Part shown: piece by piece, positions 47,666 through 56,117 of the stretch
How positions within the stretch are numbered: position 1 is the stretch's first letter
Layout of the letters: the number at the start of each line of letters is the position of its first letter
Program-made: the position numbers and the translations under genes
Notes under the pieces: model-generated
Seen by the model: the letters and a program-made list of their open reading frames with translations, nothing else
Databases searched by the model: none
What the model was told of the DNA's origin: nothing
DNA from: Salisaeta longa DSM 21114
GTDB lineage: Bacteria; Bacteroidota; Rhodothermia; Rhodothermales; Salinibacteraceae
Direction: 5' to 3'
Length of the DNA: 64,000 bases
Assembly: GCF_000419585.1 (NCBI RefSeq)
Contig: NZ_ATTH01000001.1
Span: forward strand, 1,696,005 to 1,760,004

Positions 47666-47990
47666 CATTTTTTCTCCGTAAGTCTCTTTTTTTATGGACT
47701 TACGGATTCCATGGTACAACGCAGCACAGCAAATTAGCTGAGTACGGAGAGCAGACTCCGCAACGTATACCGCGGATATTGTCTTTTCTGTGACGTGCAC
47801 CGCAGCGGTGCACGTGTCCTTCCACCTCATCCGGGTCGCGCCCAATAGCTTACACCGATTCGGCTACCTGATTTTAGCCTTGGTATTCACCGAGAATGTC
47901 GCGCTCGCACCGAGCAAAGATTGATCGCTCCGCCTCCCTGTTGTACACTACACATCAAGCTTTCTGAATCCATGATCTCTGTAGCTGGTG
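47666..47990. other. Non-coding boundary of the accessory island
   Basis: About 325 bases between tRNA-Val and the mod gene. They hold a perfect 10-bp inverted repeat, TCCGTAAGTC (47675-47684) and GACTTACGGA (47697-47706), whose 12-base loop carries a T-run. The region is more AT-rich than the core genome. No integrase gene and no repeat of the tRNA 3' end were seen. Confidence 0.55.
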
Positions 47991-50900
47991 ATGTCAACCC
48001 CCGATTCTCTTGCAAGGTTTACGGACACCCTCTGCACGCTCTTTCAGTTCGACGTAGCAGATCTTGACTTTGGTGTCTACCGAATCTTAAACGAGAAGCG
48101 CGACGACATCGAGCGGTTCATCGAGCGTGATCTCGTGGTAGGCGTCCGAGAGGAGCTGCGCGCCTACGAGGAAGGGCAAATCGAAGCGGCCCGCGAAGCT
48201 GTCAAGGAGGCGCGGCAGACGGTCTTGCAGACGCTTTCTGAGGACGCGATCTTGCCGGATGGCTCGATAAAGGAAGCGTATCGTGAGCTGAAGGCGGCGC
48301 AGGATTATATCAAGGCCCGCAAACGGCTGGAAACAGCGGAGCTTTCGGAGGACACCGAGCGGCGCATTTACGACGACCTGGCGCGCTTCTTCAACCGCTA
48401 CTACGATGGCGGCGACTTCATCACGAAGCGGCGGTTTGCAGCGGGCGATTCCAAGTACATGGTGCCCTACGACGGCGAGGAGGTGCTGCTGCACTGGGCT
48501 AATCGGGACCAGTACTACGTCAAGACGACGGAGCACTTCCGGGACTATCGCTTCACGATTCGCGGCGTGGATGTGCACTTCCGCCTCGTCGATGCGCAAA
48601 CGCCGCAGGACAACGTGAAGGCGAGCGACACCCGCTATTTCGTGCTGCAGGGCGAGGATCCGGTGACGGTAGACCCAGAGGCCGGGCGCTGTACCATCGA
48701 GTTTGCCTATCGGCCCCTCACCGAGGACGAGGACGAACGGCTCCTGGCGCGCTACAACGAGCAGCAGAGCACATCCAACCGGCGGAAGACGAACGACCGG
48801 TCGACCATCGTCGCAGCGACCACGCAGGAAGTCCTGGATGCGATGGGCGACCGCACGATCCGCGCTCAGCTTGCCCAACCGGAGGAGGGCACGGAGAAGA
48901 GCCCACTCGAAATCCATCTTAACCGCTACACGGCGAAGAATACGGCGGACTACTTCATCCACAAGGACCTGAAGGGCTTTCTGCGGGGACAGCTGGCGTT
49001 CTTCATCCAAAACGAGGTCCTGAACCTGAATGAGGTGCTGGAGGCGGAAGAGCACCGGCGCCTGCATCAGGTGGACCGCGCGAAGGCGGTGAAGAAGATC
49101 GGGGAGCGCATTATCGACTTCCTCGCGCAGATCGAGAATTTTCAGAAGCGCCTCTTCGAGAAGAAGAAGTTTATCATTGACACGGGCTACTGCGTGACGC
49201 TCGACCGCGTGCCCGACGCACTCTACGATGCGATTCTCGCTAACGAAGCGCAGCTCGACGAATGGCGCGACCTGTATGCCACAGACCAGTGGGACAACGG
49301 GCTCTTCAGCCAGGGCTATGAGGACGGCACGTTCACGCGGGACTTTCTGGAGGCACACCCGCACGTGATGATCGACACCCGGCACTTCGGGCAAGATTTC
49401 ACCGATGCCCTGCTCGCACACCTTTCGACGCTCGATGCGGACGAGGGCCTATCGGGCGTGATCGACGGCCGCTGCATTCAGGGGGAAAACTTCCAGGCGC
49501 TCAACCTGCTCCAGGAACGGTTTCGAGAGAAGGTGGACTGTGTGTATATCGATCCGCCGTACAACACGGGCAACGACGGGTTTCTCTACAAGGACAGTTA
49601 CCGGCATTCCTCATGGATGAGCATGATGGCGGATCGGGTCATGCTCACGCGCAGCTTGATGCCTGGAGAAAGCGCGCTTTTTGCCAATGTCGACGACAAC
49701 GAACAGGATAACCTGCGGAAACTGTTAGGACAGCTGTTCGGAGAAGGAAACTTCGTCGCCAATCTCATCTGGCAGAAGAAATATTCTCCCGCAAACGACG
49801 CGACGTGGTTTAGCGATGACCACGATCATGTCCTCGTGTACGCTGAGGACAAAACAAAATGGCGGCCGAAGAAGCTTCCACGTACGGAAAAGCAAAACAG
49901 CGGTTATACTAATTCAGACAATGACCCACGTGGTCCTTGGCTTTCTGGAGACTACACGTCAAACAAATCAGCAGAACAGCGACCAAATCTATACTACCCA
50001 ATCACGAATCCGAATACCGGAGAAGAAATTTGGCCACCGGAAGACGCTGTTTGGCGCTACTCTGAGGAGTATCATGAGCGTAATGTCGAGGCTAACAGAG
50101 TCTGGTGGGGACAAGAGGGAACCAATACAATGCCGCGTTACAAGCGCTTTCTAAGTGAGGTGGAAGGTATTGTGCCGCGCACAGTCTGGACATATGACAA
50201 GGCTGGGCACAACCAGGATGCCGTACGTGAACTCCACGCGCTATTCGAGCGGAATCCTTTTCCCAGCCCAAAGCCGACCAAACTCTTGCGGCGCATCTTC
50301 CAGGTGGACGGCGGTAACGTTGTGCTCGACTATTTCGCCGGAAGCGGCACCACAGGCCACGCGGTCATGAATTTGAACCGTGAGGACGGCGGCAGCCGGA
50401 CGTATGTCCTCGTCGAAATGGGCGAGCACTTCGATAACGTGATGCTCCCGCGCCTCAAGAAGGTTGCCTTCAGCAGCGAATGGAAAGACGGTGTGCCGCA
50501 GGCGAGCGACGGCATGAGCCACGTCATCCAGTATCACCGGCTGGAATCGTACGAGGATGCGCTCAACAACATCGAGGTCAAGCGCCCGGAGGCCGAGCCG
50601 TCACTTCTCGACCGGTTCGACGACTACGCACTCCGCTACATGCTCCCGCACGAGACGCGGGAGAGTGAGACGCTGCTGGCGCCGGATGCCTTCGCACGGC
50701 CGTTTGAGTACACGCTGCGCATTCAGCACGGCATGCACAGCCCCAAGGCGCACGCAGTCGATCTGGAGGCGACGTTCAACTACCTGATCGGCCTGCAGGT
50801 ACACACGCGCCGCGTTTACGAACACCAGGATCGCCGGTACGTCGTGGTGACCGGCACCGTTGAGCACGAGCAGTCCATCGACGCCGTACTGGTCGTCTGG

Positions 50901-51068
50901 CGCAATCAAGAGGACCTGGACTTGGACGCGGAGAAAGCGTGGGCGGCGGAGACGTTGCCCGAGGGGCCGTTCGACACCGTGTACGTCAACGGCCCGAGTT
51001 TCATTCACGGGCAGGCCGAGCCGCTGGAGATCACCTTACGCGAGCGGATGGATCCCGCCGCCGGATAG
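47991..51068 (+). CDS. Type III-like DNA adenine methyltransferase (Mod) with long N-terminal extension
   Basis: A 1025-residue beta-class N6-adenine methyltransferase: the catalytic motif DPPYNTGNDG is at 521 and the AdoMet-binding FAGSGTTGHAV at 782, the order used by type III Mod proteins. Between them lies the target-recognition region, where base composition drops sharply (28 G+C in bases 49981-50040 versus 34 of 60 in 48961-49020). Residues 1-~480 are an N-terminal extension not found in classical Mod proteins of ~650 residues; it includes LRGQLAFFIQNEVLNLNEVL. It methylates the recognition site to protect host DNA. A GTG one codon upstream (47988) is an alternative start. It leads a mod-RAYT-res run. 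Confidence 0.92.
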   Translation: MSTPDSLARFTDTLCTLFQFDVADLDFGVYRILNEKRDDIERFIERDLVVGVREELRAYEEGQIEAAREAVKEARQTVLQTLSEDAILPDGSIKEAYRELKAAQDYIKARKRLETAELSEDTERRIYDDLARFFNRYYDGGDFITKRRFAAGDSKYMVPYDGEEVLLHWANRDQYYVKTTEHFRDYRFTIRGVDVHFRLVDAQTPQDNVKASDTRYFVLQGEDPVTVDPEAGRCTIEFAYRPLTEDEDERLLARYNEQQSTSNRRKTNDRSTIVAATTQEVLDAMGDRTIRAQLAQPEEGTEKSPLEIHLNRYTAKNTADYFIHKDLKGFLRGQLAFFIQNEVLNLNEVLEAEEHRRLHQVDRAKAVKKIGERIIDFLAQIENFQKRLFEKKKFIIDTGYCVTLDRVPDALYDAILANEAQLDEWRDLYATDQWDNGLFSQGYEDGTFTRDFLEAHPHVMIDTRHFGQDFTDALLAHLSTLDADEGLSGVIDGRCIQGENFQALNLLQERFREKVDCVYIDPPYNTGNDGFLYKDSYRHSSWMSMMADRVMLTRSLMPGESALFANVDDNEQDNLRKLLGQLFGEGNFVANLIWQKKYSPANDATWFSDDHDHVLVYAEDKTKWRPKKLPRTEKQNSGYTNSDNDPRGPWLSGDYTSNKSAEQRPNLYYPITNPNTGEEIWPPEDAVWRYSEEYHERNVEANRVWWGQEGTNTMPRYKRFLSEVEGIVPRTVWTYDKAGHNQDAVRELHALFERNPFPSPKPTKLLRRIFQVDGGNVVLDYFAGSGTTGHAVMNLNREDGGSRTYVLVEMGEHFDNVMLPRLKKVAFSSEWKDGVPQASDGMSHVIQYHRLESYEDALNNIEVKRPEAEPSLLDRFDDYALRYMLPHETRESETLLAPDAFARPFEYTLRIQHGMHSPKAHAVDLEATFNYLIGLQVHTRRVYEHQDRRYVVVTGTVEHEQSIDAVLVVWRNQEDLDLDAEKAWAAETLPEGPFDTVYVNGPSFIHGQAEPLEITLRERMDPAAG

Positions 51069-51100: not shown

Positions 51101-51715
51101 ATGAGCGACACGCGATACCTTGGACAATACCGAACCGGCTCGATACGGCTGGACGGCTGGGATTATCGGCGGTCGGCGTGGTATTTCGTGACGATATGCA
51201 CCCATCGGCGCGCCCATCATTTTGGCGTAATCCGCAGAGGCGTCATGGGATTGTCTCCTGCCGGATGCGTCGCCGCACAATTTTGGCAACGTATCGAAGA
51301 TCTGAACGATCGGGCCGTATTGGACGCCTTTGTGGTGATGCCCAACCACGTACATGGAATATTGGGATTGTTGCCACGGCCTAACCATGCCACGGTAGAG
51401 ACGTTGGATTCCAATGTCTCTACCGTGGATTCCAACGTCTCTACGGACGCGACGGGCGCAAAAACGCCGGATCAAAGATCCCGCCACATGTCCCGCATTT
51501 CCCCGAAGGCCGGTTCAATATCGACCATCATTCGATCCTACAAAGCCGCCGTCACGAAACGCGTGCGGCCTGCACTATGCCCCGATTTTGGATGGCAACC
51601 TCGTTTCTACGACCACATCATCCGCAATGAACGGGCCTTTCGTGCCATTCGTCGGTACATTGAAAACAACCCCACACAGTGGGGCGAGGACCGTTACCAC
51701 TCCACGTCGTCATAG
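51101..51715 (+). CDS. RAYT (REP-associated tyrosine transposase), Y1/HUH type
   Basis: A 204-residue Y1 transposase-family protein. The HUH motif is H83-V-H85 in VVMPNHVHGILG, and the candidate catalytic tyrosine is Y186 in RRYIENNPTQW. The N-terminal WYFVTICTHRR segment is typical of this group. RAYTs cut single-stranded REP hairpins and are domesticated rather than freely transposing. A near-perfect palindrome lies inside the gene (51391-51427) in the loop between HUH and the C-terminal helix. It sits 32 bases after mod and 12 bases before res, in the same orientation, so all three are probably transcribed together. Confidence 0.9.
   Translation: MSDTRYLGQYRTGSIRLDGWDYRRSAWYFVTICTHRRAHHFGVIRRGVMGLSPAGCVAAQFWQRIEDLNDRAVLDAFVVMPNHVHGILGLLPRPNHATVETLDSNVSTVDSNVSTDATGAKTPDQRSRHMSRISPKAGSISTIIRSYKAAVTKRVRPALCPDFGWQPRFYDHIIRNERAFRAIRRYIENNPTQWGEDRYHSTSS
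51391..51444. repeat. REP-like palindrome inside RAYT gene 1
   Basis: Arms CACGGTAGAGACGTTGGA (51391-51408) and TCCAATGTCTCTACCGTG (51410-51427) pair with a single G-T type mismatch around one base. A second right arm, TCCAACGTCTCTAC (51431-51444), follows directly and pairs perfectly with 51395-51408. The core is GTAGAGACG / CGTCTCTAC. Confidence 0.85.
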
Positions 51716-51727
51716 ATCTGATCTCCC

Positions 51728-54700
51728 ATGCCCTCCAAGTCGTTCAACAAATTTCAGAAGCGGCTCGTCCTTGCTGCTTACTTTCGGGAGTGCTTCGGCG
51801 TGCGGGATCCAGAGGATCCCAAGGCCATCCGTCAGTACCACGAGACGCTGCGCACCACGAAAGAGGGGTTTGCACCAAGCGGCGTGTCGTACCTGGTACA
51901 GGCGCTACAAACCCGGAAGCGCGTCAGCGTGAGCGACGCGGACCTCATCCGCTACGACGAGCACATCCGTGCGCACACCGACGCCATCAACGCCCGTCGC
52001 ACCGAGCCAATCACCTGGAAGTATTTCCAGCACCTCGCGGGGCTCATGACCGAGCATTACCTTCACCGGCTCAAGACGGACGCCGAAGCATTCGCGGCGG
52101 ACATCAACGCCTTCGCCGCGCGTCGTAATGAGCACCGCACGTACATCAAGTACCCGGAGGTCAGCGCCGGTGACCTCAACAAGCTTGCGTACTGGATGGC
52201 AACCGGGAGCGGGAAGACGCTCCTGATGCACCTCAACTACTACCAGTACCGCCACTACTTCGGGGCGGCCCTGGATCACATTCTGCTCGTGACGCCCAAC
52301 GAGGGGCTTACCCGCCAGCACATGCGTGAGCTGCGTCAGAGCGGCATCGACAGCGTGTATTATCTGGATCTGCTGGAAGGCAGTCTTGATGTGGCGCCCG
52401 AGGGCGTGAAGGTCATCGAGATCTCGAAGCTCGTCGAAGACAAAACCGACGAAGGGATCCGCGTGGAGGTGGACGCCTTCGAAGGTCGGAATCTCGTCTT
52501 CGTGGATGAGGGGCACAAAGGTGCGCGCTCGGCAGCCGGCACGTGGCGGAGCTTGCGGGCGGGGCTGGCTGCGGACGGGTTCACGTTTGAATACAGCGCC
52601 ACCTTCGGGCAGGCTGTGGGCGGTTCCACACCGGCCGCCGTTGAAGAGGAGTACGGCAAGGCAATCCTGTTCGATTACTCGTATCAGCGGTTCTACGAGG
52701 ATGGCTACGGCAAGGACTATCGCATCTTGAACCTGGAGACGAGCGCCGACGAGGTGCTGGCCGGTAGCGACGATCTGACCGATCGCTATCTTTTGGCCAA
52801 CCTGCTGACGTTCTACGAGCAGCAACTCGTCTTCGGGCAGGACGAGCGCCGCATGCGGGAGGCGTACCACCTGCGGAAACCGCTCCTCATGTTCATTGGC
52901 CACAGCGTCACGGGCGGACGGAGCGTGTCGGACCTCGGCACGAACGACAAACGAAGCGTCACCGACATTCAACGCCTCGTCGCCTTTCTGCATCGGGTGC
53001 TCACCGATAGCGAGTGGGCCGAAGGGGCGATCCGGGAGCTGCTCACCGGCGACAGCCCGTTGCAGATCGATGGGAACGACCTGTTCGCGGATGCCTTTGG
53101 CGCGCTGCGGGCGCAGCTCGAATCCGGATGGACGGTGCAGGCGCTTCTCGGAGATCTGCGCGAGCGCCTCTTCCATGCCTCCGGAGCAACGGGCCTCCGC
53201 CTCGTGAATCTCACCAGCGCTCAGGGCGAGATTGGCCTCCGTGCAGGCGACGCCGACGCCTTCTTTGGCGTCATTGATGTCGGAAACGATCGCGGCTTTC
53301 TGCAACTGACCGAACAGGACCTGCCCGACATTACCATCGCCGAGTCGGCGTTCGAGGGCTCCCTGTTCAAGCGCATCAACCGGCGGGGCTCAAACGTCAA
53401 CGTGCTTCTCGGCGCGAAGAAATTCATTGAGGGCTGGAGCAGCTGGCGGGTCTCTACGATGGGCCTCATGAACATCGGCCGCGGGGAAGGCCCACAGATC
53501 ATCCAACTCTTTGGGCGCGGCGTGCGCCTCTTGGGGAAGAATCGCAGCCTGAAGCGATCGACGGCTCTGCCAGAAGCAGGCCCCCACCCCCGGCGTCTGC
53601 CGCTGCTCGAAACCCTGAACATCTTCGGCGTGCGGGCCAAGTACATGGCCCAATTTCGCAACTACCTCGAAGATGAGGGCATCGACACCGAGGAGCGAGA
53701 GATCATCCGGTTCAAGACCCGCACGGACAATCGCTTTGTGGGAAAAGGGCTGCAGGTGATCCGCCCACGTACGACCGTCACATACGAATCGCAAGATGAG
53801 GTCAGGCTTTCGATCGATGACGATATTGTCCCAGAGCTCGACCTGACTCCACAAATGGAAGCGCTCGTCTCAGCCGATGCGGTTCACGAGACACCAGCCA
53901 CGTACGACATGGGCGAGAACCGGTATGTCGACCCAGGTCTGCTTCCACTGCTTGACTGGAAGCGTATCTATCGGACCTGCTGGCGCTATCGGGAAAAAGA
54001 GGGCTACACGAATCTCACGTTCGACGTGACCCCGTTGCGGGAGCTCATCGAGGCGCAGCATTACGTGCTCCGTTGCCCGGCCGAAATGATCGAGTGCAAC
54101 CGATTCGAAGACCGCCGCGACATCGAATCGATCGTGCTGCGCATCCTTCGTACGTATATCACCGCGTTCCATTCCAGCCGCAAGCAACAGTGGGAGCGTT
54201 CGACCATGCAGTATGAGACCCTGACAAAGCAAGATGGGAATCTCGTTGCTGTCATCGAGGCGCGAGTGCGACGCTCAGCAACAACGTTCATTGAAAAGCT
54301 ACTCGATCGACTAGAACACATCGATACAGACGGCGAGGTGCTCTTCGTTGGAGACGATGCATTATACGAAACCGAGTCGGGAACGCCGCCGCGTGTTTAC
54401 TTCGAACGGCACCTGTATCTTCCTCTTGTTACGCAGGAGGATGATGTTGTAAAATACAGCCCTCCGGGCCTTAACACCGGAGAGCGCACCTTCATTGAGC
54501 ATCTCCGTTCGTTTCTGCGCACACCGAATGGGGGTGATTTCATGAAGGGCAAAGAGTTGTACGTCTTACGCAACCAGTCACGCGGGCAGGGTGTGGGGTT
54601 TCAGATGCAGGAAGGCGGCCGCTTTTTCCCGGATTTTATTCTCTGGCTCGTCGATGATAGCAAGCAGCATATGATCTTCGTCGATCCGAAAGGGCTTAAC

Positions 54701-54976
54701 GTTGGGATGGGTGGAATCGATGCAGACGCCAAGGTCACGTTTTGCAAGAGCATCGGAGCTTACCAGCAGGAGTTGAATGAGCGGTCCGGTCGTGACGACA
54801 TCAGGCTGCATGCATTCATTTTTTCAACAACTGATTTCCAGACGATCCAGCAAAAGCAGACCATAGATACGCGAGAGGAATTTGCGGATCGCCACATCTA
54901 CTTTTTAGAGGACGGCCCGACAGCAGTCCATCGGATGCTGGCCAGAACGCACCGCGCTGATGATGCGGCGGCATAG
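51728..54976 (+). CDS. Type III-like restriction subunit (Res), helicase-nuclease
   Basis: A 1082-residue SF2 helicase/translocase plus endonuclease. Walker A ATGSGKT is at 158-164, motif II DEGH at 260-263, motif III YSATF, and motif VI IIQLFGRGVRLLGKN. The C-terminal PD-(D/E)XK nuclease shows D969 (FFPDFILW) and D986-P-K988 (FVDPKGLN). It uses ATP to move along DNA and cuts unmethylated sites with Mod. No start ambiguity: ATG 51728. The gene follows the RAYT by 12 bases. It is in normal length for the family (~1000). Confidence 0.9.
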   Translation: MPSKSFNKFQKRLVLAAYFRECFGVRDPEDPKAIRQYHETLRTTKEGFAPSGVSYLVQALQTRKRVSVSDADLIRYDEHIRAHTDAINARRTEPITWKYFQHLAGLMTEHYLHRLKTDAEAFAADINAFAARRNEHRTYIKYPEVSAGDLNKLAYWMATGSGKTLLMHLNYYQYRHYFGAALDHILLVTPNEGLTRQHMRELRQSGIDSVYYLDLLEGSLDVAPEGVKVIEISKLVEDKTDEGIRVEVDAFEGRNLVFVDEGHKGARSAAGTWRSLRAGLAADGFTFEYSATFGQAVGGSTPAAVEEEYGKAILFDYSYQRFYEDGYGKDYRILNLETSADEVLAGSDDLTDRYLLANLLTFYEQQLVFGQDERRMREAYHLRKPLLMFIGHSVTGGRSVSDLGTNDKRSVTDIQRLVAFLHRVLTDSEWAEGAIRELLTGDSPLQIDGNDLFADAFGALRAQLESGWTVQALLGDLRERLFHASGATGLRLVNLTSAQGEIGLRAGDADAFFGVIDVGNDRGFLQLTEQDLPDITIAESAFEGSLFKRINRRGSNVNVLLGAKKFIEGWSSWRVSTMGLMNIGRGEGPQIIQLFGRGVRLLGKNRSLKRSTALPEAGPHPRRLPLLETLNIFGVRAKYMAQFRNYLEDEGIDTEEREIIRFKTRTDNRFVGKGLQVIRPRTTVTYESQDEVRLSIDDDIVPELDLTPQMEALVSADAVHETPATYDMGENRYVDPGLLPLLDWKRIYRTCWRYREKEGYTNLTFDVTPLRELIEAQHYVLRCPAEMIECNRFEDRRDIESIVLRILRTYITAFHSSRKQQWERSTMQYETLTKQDGNLVAVIEARVRRSATTFIEKLLDRLEHIDTDGEVLFVGDDALYETESGTPPRVYFERHLYLPLVTQEDDVVKYSPPGLNTGERTFIEHLRSFLRTPNGGDFMKGKELYVLRNQSRGQGVGFQMQEGGRFFPDFILWLVDDSKQHMIFVDPKGLNVGMGGIDADAKVTFCKSIGAYQQELNERSGRDDIRLHAFIFSTTDFQTIQQKQTIDTREEFADRHIYFLEDGPTAVHRMLARTHRADDAAA

Positions 54977-55012
54977 TGCTTCGATTCACAGTGCAGCGGC
55001 AGCTCAACGCCT

Positions 55013-55078
55013 TCATACGCGTTCCGGTGCATTCAGCCGTACATCCAGAACAACCCGGCGCACTGGAGCGATGACTGT
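55013..55078 (+). pseudogene. Third RAYT remnant, C-terminal fragment
   Basis: In the frame starting at 55013 the DNA reads about 20 codons giving AFRCIQPYIQNNPAHWSDD, which matches AFRAIRRYIENNPTQWGED at the end of the intact RAYT at 10 of 19 positions, including the YIxNNP tyrosine motif. No start or HUH part is present, so it is a small decay fragment. Confidence 0.6.
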
Positions 55079-55224
55079 TGTTGTTCTGTTGCGGTGCGTC
55101 CGTCTTCATAACTCCGTCACCCTGCTTGTATCGTTACCGTACCGAAGACACTGCGTGCAGTGCGGAATCTCCTCCTGGCACCGTGCGCAAAACGGAACCA
55201 AAACGAACCATCCTCCATGTCTTC

Positions 55225-55455
55225 ATGCCTGCCCTCACGCTGAAAGGCATCCCCGAAGAGGTCATGGACCGCATTCGGGAGCTGGCCGATACCGAGCGGC
55301 GCAGTCTGAACCAACAGGCGATCTTGCTGCTGGGGCGGGCCGTGGCCGAGCAGCCGGATTCGTTTGGTACCGCGTATCGCCGATTCCGGAAGCAGCGGGG
55401 TCCATCGCCACTGGATGCAGATACGTTGGATAGCCTCCGAGATGAGGAGACATAA
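55225..55455 (+). CDS. FitA-like (Arc/MetJ-type) antitoxin
   Basis: A 76-residue protein with a FitA-type N-terminus: MPALTLKGIPEEVMDRIREL followed by ERRSLNQQAILLLGRAVAEQ, a ribbon-helix-helix DNA-binding domain with a C-terminal tail that would hold a PIN-domain toxin. Such antitoxins normally overlap or precede a VapC/FitB toxin gene by a few bases, but here a RAYT pseudogene follows and no PIN-domain gene is visible. ATG 55225 matches the family start; 49 codons upstream in frame have no support. Confidence 0.75.
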   Translation: MPALTLKGIPEEVMDRIRELADTERRSLNQQAILLLGRAVAEQPDSFGTAYRRFRKQRGPSPLDADTLDSLRDEET

Positions 55456-55521
55456 TCTCGGTTTGGTGAAGACTCAACTGCTGCCTGTTGAGCTGCTCAA
55501 CAGCCTACTCATTGCGAAGAG

Positions 55522-56117
55522 ATGCGACGCATGGCCTTGTACCGCGGGACCTATCGGATCGATTCGGCACGCCATCCAACCTGGGATTATCGGTCGCCGG
55601 GGTGGTATTTCGTCACAATCTGTGCACACCAGCGTGCCTGTTTCTTCGGATCGATCTGTAACGGCATCATGGGGGGTCAGAGGCGGGATGCGTCGTGGCC
55701 GAAGAATGGCAACGAACCCCGCAGGTGCGTCCGTACGTGGTGTTAGATACATGGGTCATTATGCCTAACCATGTGCATGGGGTGGTCGGCATACGGTCGA
55801 ATTCACCTGGGGCATCGCTCGATGTTTTATCCGACGTAGAGACGCCTCGCCGAGGCGTCTCTACGGGCAAAACTCCGACCTTGCATGCACATTCGTTGGG
55901 CGCGATCATCGGGCAGATAAAATCCGCCTGCACCAAACGTATTCGGCGGGAGGTACGCACCGATTTCGCATGGCAATCCCGGTATCATGACCGCATTGTG
56001 CGCAACGAACGTGAATTCCGCGCCATCCGCCAGTACGTGTTTGACAACCCGATACAATGGATAGAGGACCGGCTACATCCAGACAGCGCGCTACCCAAAA
56101 GATCCCCGAAATCGTAA
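55522..56117 (+). pseudogene. Second RAYT, split by a one-base frameshift
   Basis: The N-terminal half (starting at 55522) reads MRRMALYRGTYRIDSARHPT through WYFVTICAHQRACFFG and breaks after GIMG. The C-terminal half continues in another frame from about 55677 (SEAGCVVAEEW, then VIMPNHVHGVVGI with HUH and RQYVFDNPIQW with the Tyr) to 56117. One extra base within the six-G run at 55671-55676 would restore a single ~198-residue RAYT. It carries a perfect palindrome at 55835-55865. It is either inactive, phase-variable at the G-run, or a sequencing error. Confidence 0.8.
55835..55865. repeat. REP-like palindrome inside RAYT gene 2
   Basis: Perfect 15-base arms CGTAGAGACGCCTCG (55835-55849) and CGAGGCGTCTCTACG (55851-55865) with a single-base centre. 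The core GTAGAGACG / CGTCTCTAC is shared with the palindrome in RAYT 1, and it lies at the same place in the protein, after HVHG and before the C-terminal helix. Confidence 0.9.

Follow-up and report, generated by a model that had tools for sequence, protein, structure and literature searches.

A stretch of 64,000 nucleotides from Salisaeta longa DSM 21114 (contig NZ_ATTH01000001.1, forward strand, positions 1,696,005 to 1,760,004; termed 'the window' below, and numbered from its first nucleotide) contains two genes of the family of REP-associated tyrosine transposases (RAYTs), the published members of which bind repetitive extragenic palindromes (REPs) as single-stranded DNA (PMC8266576). Each of these genes, RAYT1 and RAYT2, harbors within its coding sequence a palindrome, and it is the nature, maintenance and probable role of that embedded element that are considered here. 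A preliminary description of this DNA had placed both palindromes, in frame, after the HUH motif and before the C-terminal helix, and had given the peptides that they encode as VETLDSNVST and VETPRRGVST; recomputation of the arms reproduces the positions and the peptides alike, and none of 200 shuffles of either sequence folds equally well or better (z of -8.0 for RAYT1 and -5.6 for RAYT2 as DNA, and of -7.8 and -5.9 in the same test as RNA). Working handles are used below for genomes (G), contigs (C) and RAYT loci (L). The corresponding features of the window are:

51101..51715, + strand: RAYT1, a RAYT gene resembling subclass 2.4, with an intact open reading frame (ORF) of 204 amino acids (aa)
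51395..51423, + strand: embedded double-foot palindrome of RAYT1, GTAGAGACGTTGGATTCCAATGTCTCTAC, of the form GTAG...CTAC, coding for residues 99 onward
51406-51426 / 51427-51447, + strand: in-frame tandem duplication of 21 bp involving the RAYT1 right arm, identical at 18/21 positions and encoding DSNVSTV / DSNVST
51512..51574, + strand: helix alphaC of RAYT1, GSISTIIRSYKAAVTKRV, part of the model helix 140-158
55522..56117, + strand: RAYT2, with a frameshift near 55671-55674
55836..55864, + strand: embedded double-foot palindrome of RAYT2, GTAGAGACGCCTCGCCGAGGCGTCTCTAC, perfect, with pairing that extends to 55835-55865
55890..55946, + strand: helix alphaC of RAYT2, HSLGAIIGQIKSACTKRIR, of the same class as in the RAYTs L100, L265 and L266

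Judged by its HUH motif, profile matches and fold, RAYT1 is a member of the RAYT (TnpAREP, HUH Y1) family. The NCBIfam model NF047646 matches it at E=7e-15, and matches the C-terminal half of RAYT2 at E=2.7e-14, in each case under the curated cut-off of 80 bits, and a structure search with an AlphaFold2 model of RAYT1 (mean pLDDT 85) returned as its best PDB match 4er8, the REP-bound RAYT of E. coli (E=1e-6). The signatures NHVH, WQ and YIENNP of RAYT1 correspond to the NH[IFV]H, WQ and YIxNNP of subclass 2.4; those of RAYT2 are NHVH, WQ and YVFDNP, the last a near match. In the RAYT1 model, a loop of residues 91-139 lies between a strand (83-90) and a helix (140-158), and the residues encoded by the palindrome are predicted to form a disordered part of that loop, between the HUH strand and alphaC (pLDDT about 50 for residues 91-120). 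Across 117 subclass 2.4-like RAYTs this loop is highly variable, corresponding to the insertion of variable length between beta3 (the HUH strand) and alphaC that marks the subclass. The preliminary description had spoken of two RAYT genes, which is correct for the intact RAYT1, but it had overlooked the frameshift in RAYT2, which places the N-terminal part (55540-55674) in one frame and the C-terminal part (55671-56117) in another, and because of which RAYT2 is probably a pseudogene.

The pairing in RAYT1 reaches beyond the double-foot element to 51390-51428 (arms 51390-51408 and 51410-51428, of 19 nt, in which the single mismatch is a G-T wobble), and a second pairing joins 51395-51413 to 51426-51444, with the second copy of the right arm, CGTCTCTAC at 51436-51444, pairing perfectly with the left arm. 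In RAYT2 the arms are perfect over 15 nt (55835-55849 and 55851-55865); L100, L265 and L266 likewise contain 29-nt palindromes whose ends read CG-N-CG or nearly so. Duplication of one arm, in frame and with a period of 21 bp, is also seen in L071, L072 and L096, which like RAYT1 come from different phyla, and 42 of 167 loops contain tandem repeats, whose period is often 9-21 bp. These in-frame arm duplications suggest slippage or repeated cutting and rejoining at the hairpin, and in view of them the target-driven mosaicism raised in the preliminary description is possible.

The genome as a whole (3.4 Mb in 3 contigs) contains two further RAYTs outside the window, RAYT3 and RAYT4, which were recovered with a protein query because the PF01797 profile detects only one RAYT of this genome:

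C1:2196152-2196748 and C1:996847-997470: two further RAYTs, the second with an internal stop codon

These harbor perfect palindromes at the same site, GTAGGGATTCATCGCCGATGAATCCCTAC and GTAACGTCGACCGGCCGGTCGACGTTAC, so that each of the genome's four RAYTs has an element of its own there, different from the other three. A search of the 3.4 Mb with the RAYT1 and RAYT2 elements at up to 3 mismatches returned RAYT1, RAYT2 and a single degenerate site with 3 mismatches, extending genome-wide the earlier report that the palindrome is unseen elsewhere; at the same threshold no other convincing copy of the RAYT1, RAYT2 or RAYT3 elements was found (the RAYT4 element was not searched), and the existence of a dispersed REP family in this genome, considered as a candidate, was rejected on these searches. 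No palindrome lies within the 1-kb flanks of RAYT1 or RAYT2, and the flanking and genomically dispersed REPs that define a classical REPtron are thus not found for either gene. Four different palindromes and the failure to find other copies indicate that the elements here are private to their RAYTs. The two palindromes of the window had been described as related; this is accurate for their outer nine bases, in which GTAGAGACG is a generic outer arm, and not for their inner stems, which belong to different classes.

Comparison of related RAYTs further established what is conserved in the element. RAYT3 and L320, of another genus, have palindromes identical at 28/29 bases in different reading frames, with a core protein identity of 65% and with 11/29 four-fold degenerate sites identical. 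Between RAYT4 and L339 one base pair is altered, on both sides; between RAYT1 and L319 two base pairs are altered, both two-sided (four-fold sites 8/27 identical); and in each of these two comparisons the paired changes and the unpaired centre are the only differences. L315, from another family of the order, differs from RAYT1 by one pair, again changed on both sides (the perfect second right arm of RAYT1 was used in its family-level comparisons). Identity at four-fold sites across the family-level pairs ranges from 8/27 to 18/37. Eighteen pairs of RAYTs have identical palindromes, most of them with flanks whose identity is near random, and in 5/18 the two copies stand in different frames. Among pairs with a core identity of at least 0.55, differing pair positions are two-sided in 499 cases and one-sided in 88, these counts not being independent events. 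An identical 28-nt element is found in both phases in different RAYTs, where it encodes VETLQCNVST in one case and RDVACNVST in the other. Because the element is read in two frames, changes on both sides of the stem and persists where silent sites are saturated, what is maintained appears to be a hairpin, in DNA or RNA, and not a peptide.

The preliminary description had made its proposal depend in part on the occurrence of the palindrome in relatives, where it is indeed found: GTAGAGACG N0-26 CGTCTCTAC is present in 58 of 394 genomes of the phylum, versus 2 for a reversed control. These elements mostly measure 28 or 29 nt in total, and their inner arms vary between genomes and stay complementary; of 30 (one per genome), 4 lie within RAYT genes, downstream of the HUH motif. 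In G096, of the same order, a 29-nt element with the same outer arms, GTAGAGACGCCCCACTGGGGCGTCTCTAC, occurs in 41 copies, two of which flank, one per side, that genome's only RAYT match (L233, G096:C28). L233 has the HUH form DHVH and a short loop with no embedded copy; it is a REPtron of the classical kind, found alongside RAYTs of the embedded type. In G131, also of the same order, there are only two copies, one within a RAYT and one just outside, and the sole copy in G013 is inside a RAYT. These three placements therefore tie the element to the RAYT/REP system. Elsewhere in the phylum, tandem GTAGAGACGCGAAGTATCGCGTCTCTAC elements are clustered within about 600 bp at L027 (G363:C22:35005-35569).

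In a sample of RAYTs gathered from many phyla, a long palindrome (arms of at least 11) lies in the loop region of 76 of the 117 subclass 2.4-like genes and elsewhere in the ORF of 8; since similarity to RAYT1 was favoured in the sampling, these proportions are not unbiased rates. Loop palindromes were also found in 16 of 42 RAYTs of a cyanobacterial sample and in 10 of 18 from the family of Salisaeta longa, including two of that genome's own. Lengths of 28 nt and 29 nt account for 57 and 11 of 70 elements, respectively. The GTAG lies in codon phase 0 in 49 cases, in phase 1 in 17, and in none in phase 2, which would make TAG an in-frame stop codon.

The inner five bases of the stem, by which these elements differ, were found to track the similarity of the proteins (Mantel r 0.39, permutation maximum 0.15). 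This signal is concentrated in alphaC (r 0.48) and the alphaB end (0.38), and almost nothing of it remains in the catalytic C-terminal core; with the rest of the protein controlled, the partial r is 0.435 for alphaC (permutation maximum 0.17), 0.343 for the alphaB end and 0.057 for the rest, and randomly drawn columns, matched for variability, give no value above 0.26. In the separate cyanobacterial set (n=14), alphaC alone exceeds all permutations (partial r 0.554 versus a maximum of 0.409). The alphaC of RAYT1 is equivalent to helix alpha3 of E. coli TnpAREP, the DNA-binding helix of that enzyme (PMC8266576).

The embedded stem is also related to the REPs around it. In 21 of 83 RAYTs the arm (14 nt, at most 1 mismatch) is found again in the 700 nt flanking the gene, about tenfold above a swapped-arm control (2.3 on average, maximum 5). 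The dispersed elements of eight genomes match an embedded stem of the same genome in 16 of 68 cases, versus 8.5 with swapped genomes, which is a modest excess (P=0.007). The flanking copies, together with the 41 copies in G096, those in G131 and the covariation with alphaC, bear out the earlier view that the palindrome is of the REP type. RAYTs of one genome have a mean inner match of 1.46/5, versus 1.82 over all pairs, and the invasion of RAYTs by a host-wide REP was set aside as unsupported, given the different stems found among RAYTs of a single genome.

Taken together, these observations indicate that RAYT1 and RAYT2 are probably subclass 2.4-like TnpAREP genes that house their own cognate double-foot REP hairpin, an element that is REP-like, with an inner stem that is specific to each RAYT lineage and covaries with alphaC. 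The enzyme would recognize its hairpin when replication exposes the gene as single strands, or possibly in the mRNA; the hairpin would remain in the gene since the loop tolerates it and since enzyme and target are thereby kept together, a linkage that would allow the pair to survive horizontal transfer or the loss of dispersed copies. Binding of the gene to its own product might additionally dampen its expression or cleavage. The broader proposition, that a RAYT gene serves as the repository of its own REP, with the cognate hairpin of each lineage under selection for nucleic-acid structure and co-evolving with alphaC, is one for which the case seems evenly balanced.

Several observations weigh against these proposals. 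Most dispersed elements of the eight genomes do not match the embedded stems, so that many must belong to other or past RAYTs, and with genomes weighted equally the excess of matches has P=0.11. The loop palindrome is missing from about one third of the main sample, itself biased towards RAYTs that resemble RAYT1, from about 60% of the cyanobacterial RAYTs and from 8 of the 18 family-level RAYTs, and is therefore dispensable. RAYT2 retains a perfect palindrome despite its frameshift, so that a live enzyme is unnecessary over short times. Finally, the permutations leave phylogeny in, the alphaB-end segment was picked after inspection of the data, and the alphaC association could derive in part from shared descent or from the exchange of gene cassettes.

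One alternative, neutral parasitism, regards the RAYT loop as an in-frame position that accepts insertions and is near the site of enzyme synthesis, at which functionless copies insert and decay. This is unlikely but far from negligible: intragenic REPs are reported in many genes (PMC3733652), Quentin et al. regard the loop, in their account of the subclass, as peripheral and its insertion as perhaps of little impact (PMC6006769), the loop is disordered in the RAYT1 model and often holds tandem repeats, the element is lacking from many RAYTs, and the broken RAYT2 carries one. It is opposed by lineage stems that are kept across genera, with two-sided changes only, where four-fold sites are saturated; by the lack of a second copy of the RAYT1, RAYT2 or RAYT3 elements in the genome from which to reinsert; and by a stem class that tracks alphaC and not the common REPs of the host, the stems of RAYTs from one genome being no more alike than those of random pairs. 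Autoregulation, in which the RAYT restricts its own synthesis by binding to the hairpin of its mRNA or gene, or in which the mRNA hairpin slows translation, seems rather improbable. The mRNA hairpins are predicted to be very stable (-37.7 kcal/mol for RAYT1 and -26.9 for RAYT2) and two-sided changes preserve the stem, but the same evidence suits a role at the DNA level, the published enzymes bind single-stranded DNA (PMC8266576), and the element is missing from many RAYTs.

That linkage and not function joins stem to helix, through exchange between RAYTs of a cassette comprising the palindrome and the region from the alphaB end to alphaC, is a doubtful explanation. The covarying segments do flank the palindrome, and little of the signal falls in the conserved HUH strand that separates them; the C-terminal core immediately after alphaC, however, is almost without association, so that very local exchange, repeated across phyla, would be needed, and the paired changes within the family are not explained by exchange. 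The least probable alternative by far, to the point of being nearly dismissible, is that these are chance palindromes or a constraint on a VET...VST protein repeat: some RAYTs do have similar peptides, and nothing more favours it, whereas none of 585 codon-shuffled RAYT loops contains such a palindrome and the same DNA is used in two frames with different peptides, on which grounds this candidate was rejected.

The surroundings of the two genes contain additional remnants and neighbors. RAYT1 sits between the mod (47988-51068) and res (51728-54976) genes of a type III restriction system, all on the + strand. Directly after res lies one further feature:

55019..55075, + strand: fragment of the 3' end of a further RAYT, AFRCIQPYIQNNPAHWSDD (tblastn with RAYT1, 58% over 19 aa, E=0.001)

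The locus has therefore received RAYT copies repeatedly. A small ORF just upstream of RAYT2 (55078-55455) gives a weak match to ribbon-helix-helix antitoxins (FitA/CopG-like). The RAYT of G131 with an embedded REP (L313) is likewise placed among ORFs that resemble restriction-modification genes, in that case of type I; a general link between RAYTs and restriction-modification was rejected, since few such families occur among 129 ORFs neighboring 80 RAYT loci.

The wider questions are how a RAYT selects its REPs and why its host retains such an enzyme; recognition by groups 2 and 3 has been studied with a small number of enzyme-REP pairs. Should the embedded palindrome be the cognate target, pairs of enzyme and target become readable from the gene itself across phyla, and a code of recognition between alphaC and stem becomes testable. 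The palindrome would then reveal which target any given subclass 2.4 RAYT is specific for, even where the genome has no dispersed REPs, and the enzyme would move between phyla together with its target. It would also constitute a DNA element maintained inside coding sequence, in either of two frames, for reasons of the nucleic acid and not of the protein.

Several of these features have precedents among known systems. E. coli TnpAREP (group 2, 4ER8) shares with RAYT1 and RAYT2 the HUH-tyrosine fold and the GTAG foot, and its alpha3 reads the hairpin; its REPs, in contrast, are imperfect, bulged hairpins with a single foot that flank the gene and are highly repeated, and the group 2 motif is DHLH, as opposed to NHVH (PMC8266576). 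The REPtrons of Di Nocera et al. (2013) likewise combine GTAG-tagged short palindromes with flanking of RAYT genes and with in-frame intragenic copies, although the latter, as presented there, fall mainly in replication and repair genes and not regularly in RAYTs (PMC3733652). The closest relatives are the subclass 2.4 TnpAREPs (RAYT group 4), which occur in Cyanobacteria, Bacteroidetes and other phyla, and which have in common with RAYT1 and RAYT2 the three signatures, the variable insertion between beta3 and alphaC, and double-foot REPs of the form GT[AG]G...C[TC]AC (PMC6006769). Quentin et al. (2018) described genes of that subclass in which such REPs are inserted between the HuH motif and the Y without loss of the reading frame (PMC6006769), as found here at 51395-51423 and 55836-55864. 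Literature searches on in-gene REPs of RAYTs turned up that study alone, and searches on the palindrome sequence itself only unrelated papers. RAYT1 and RAYT2 thus appear, from their signatures and anatomy, to fit subclass 2.4, and therefore belong to a phenomenon that is already published. They differ from its description of the subclass in that neither has flanking REPs, no dispersed copies were found, and the palindromes of all four RAYTs of the genome are private. What goes beyond that account, as far as it extends, is the compensatory maintenance of lineage-specific stems, the private elements without dispersed copies and the association with alphaC; these observations recast the 'inserted REP' as a 'carried cognate target', a proposal that can be tested.

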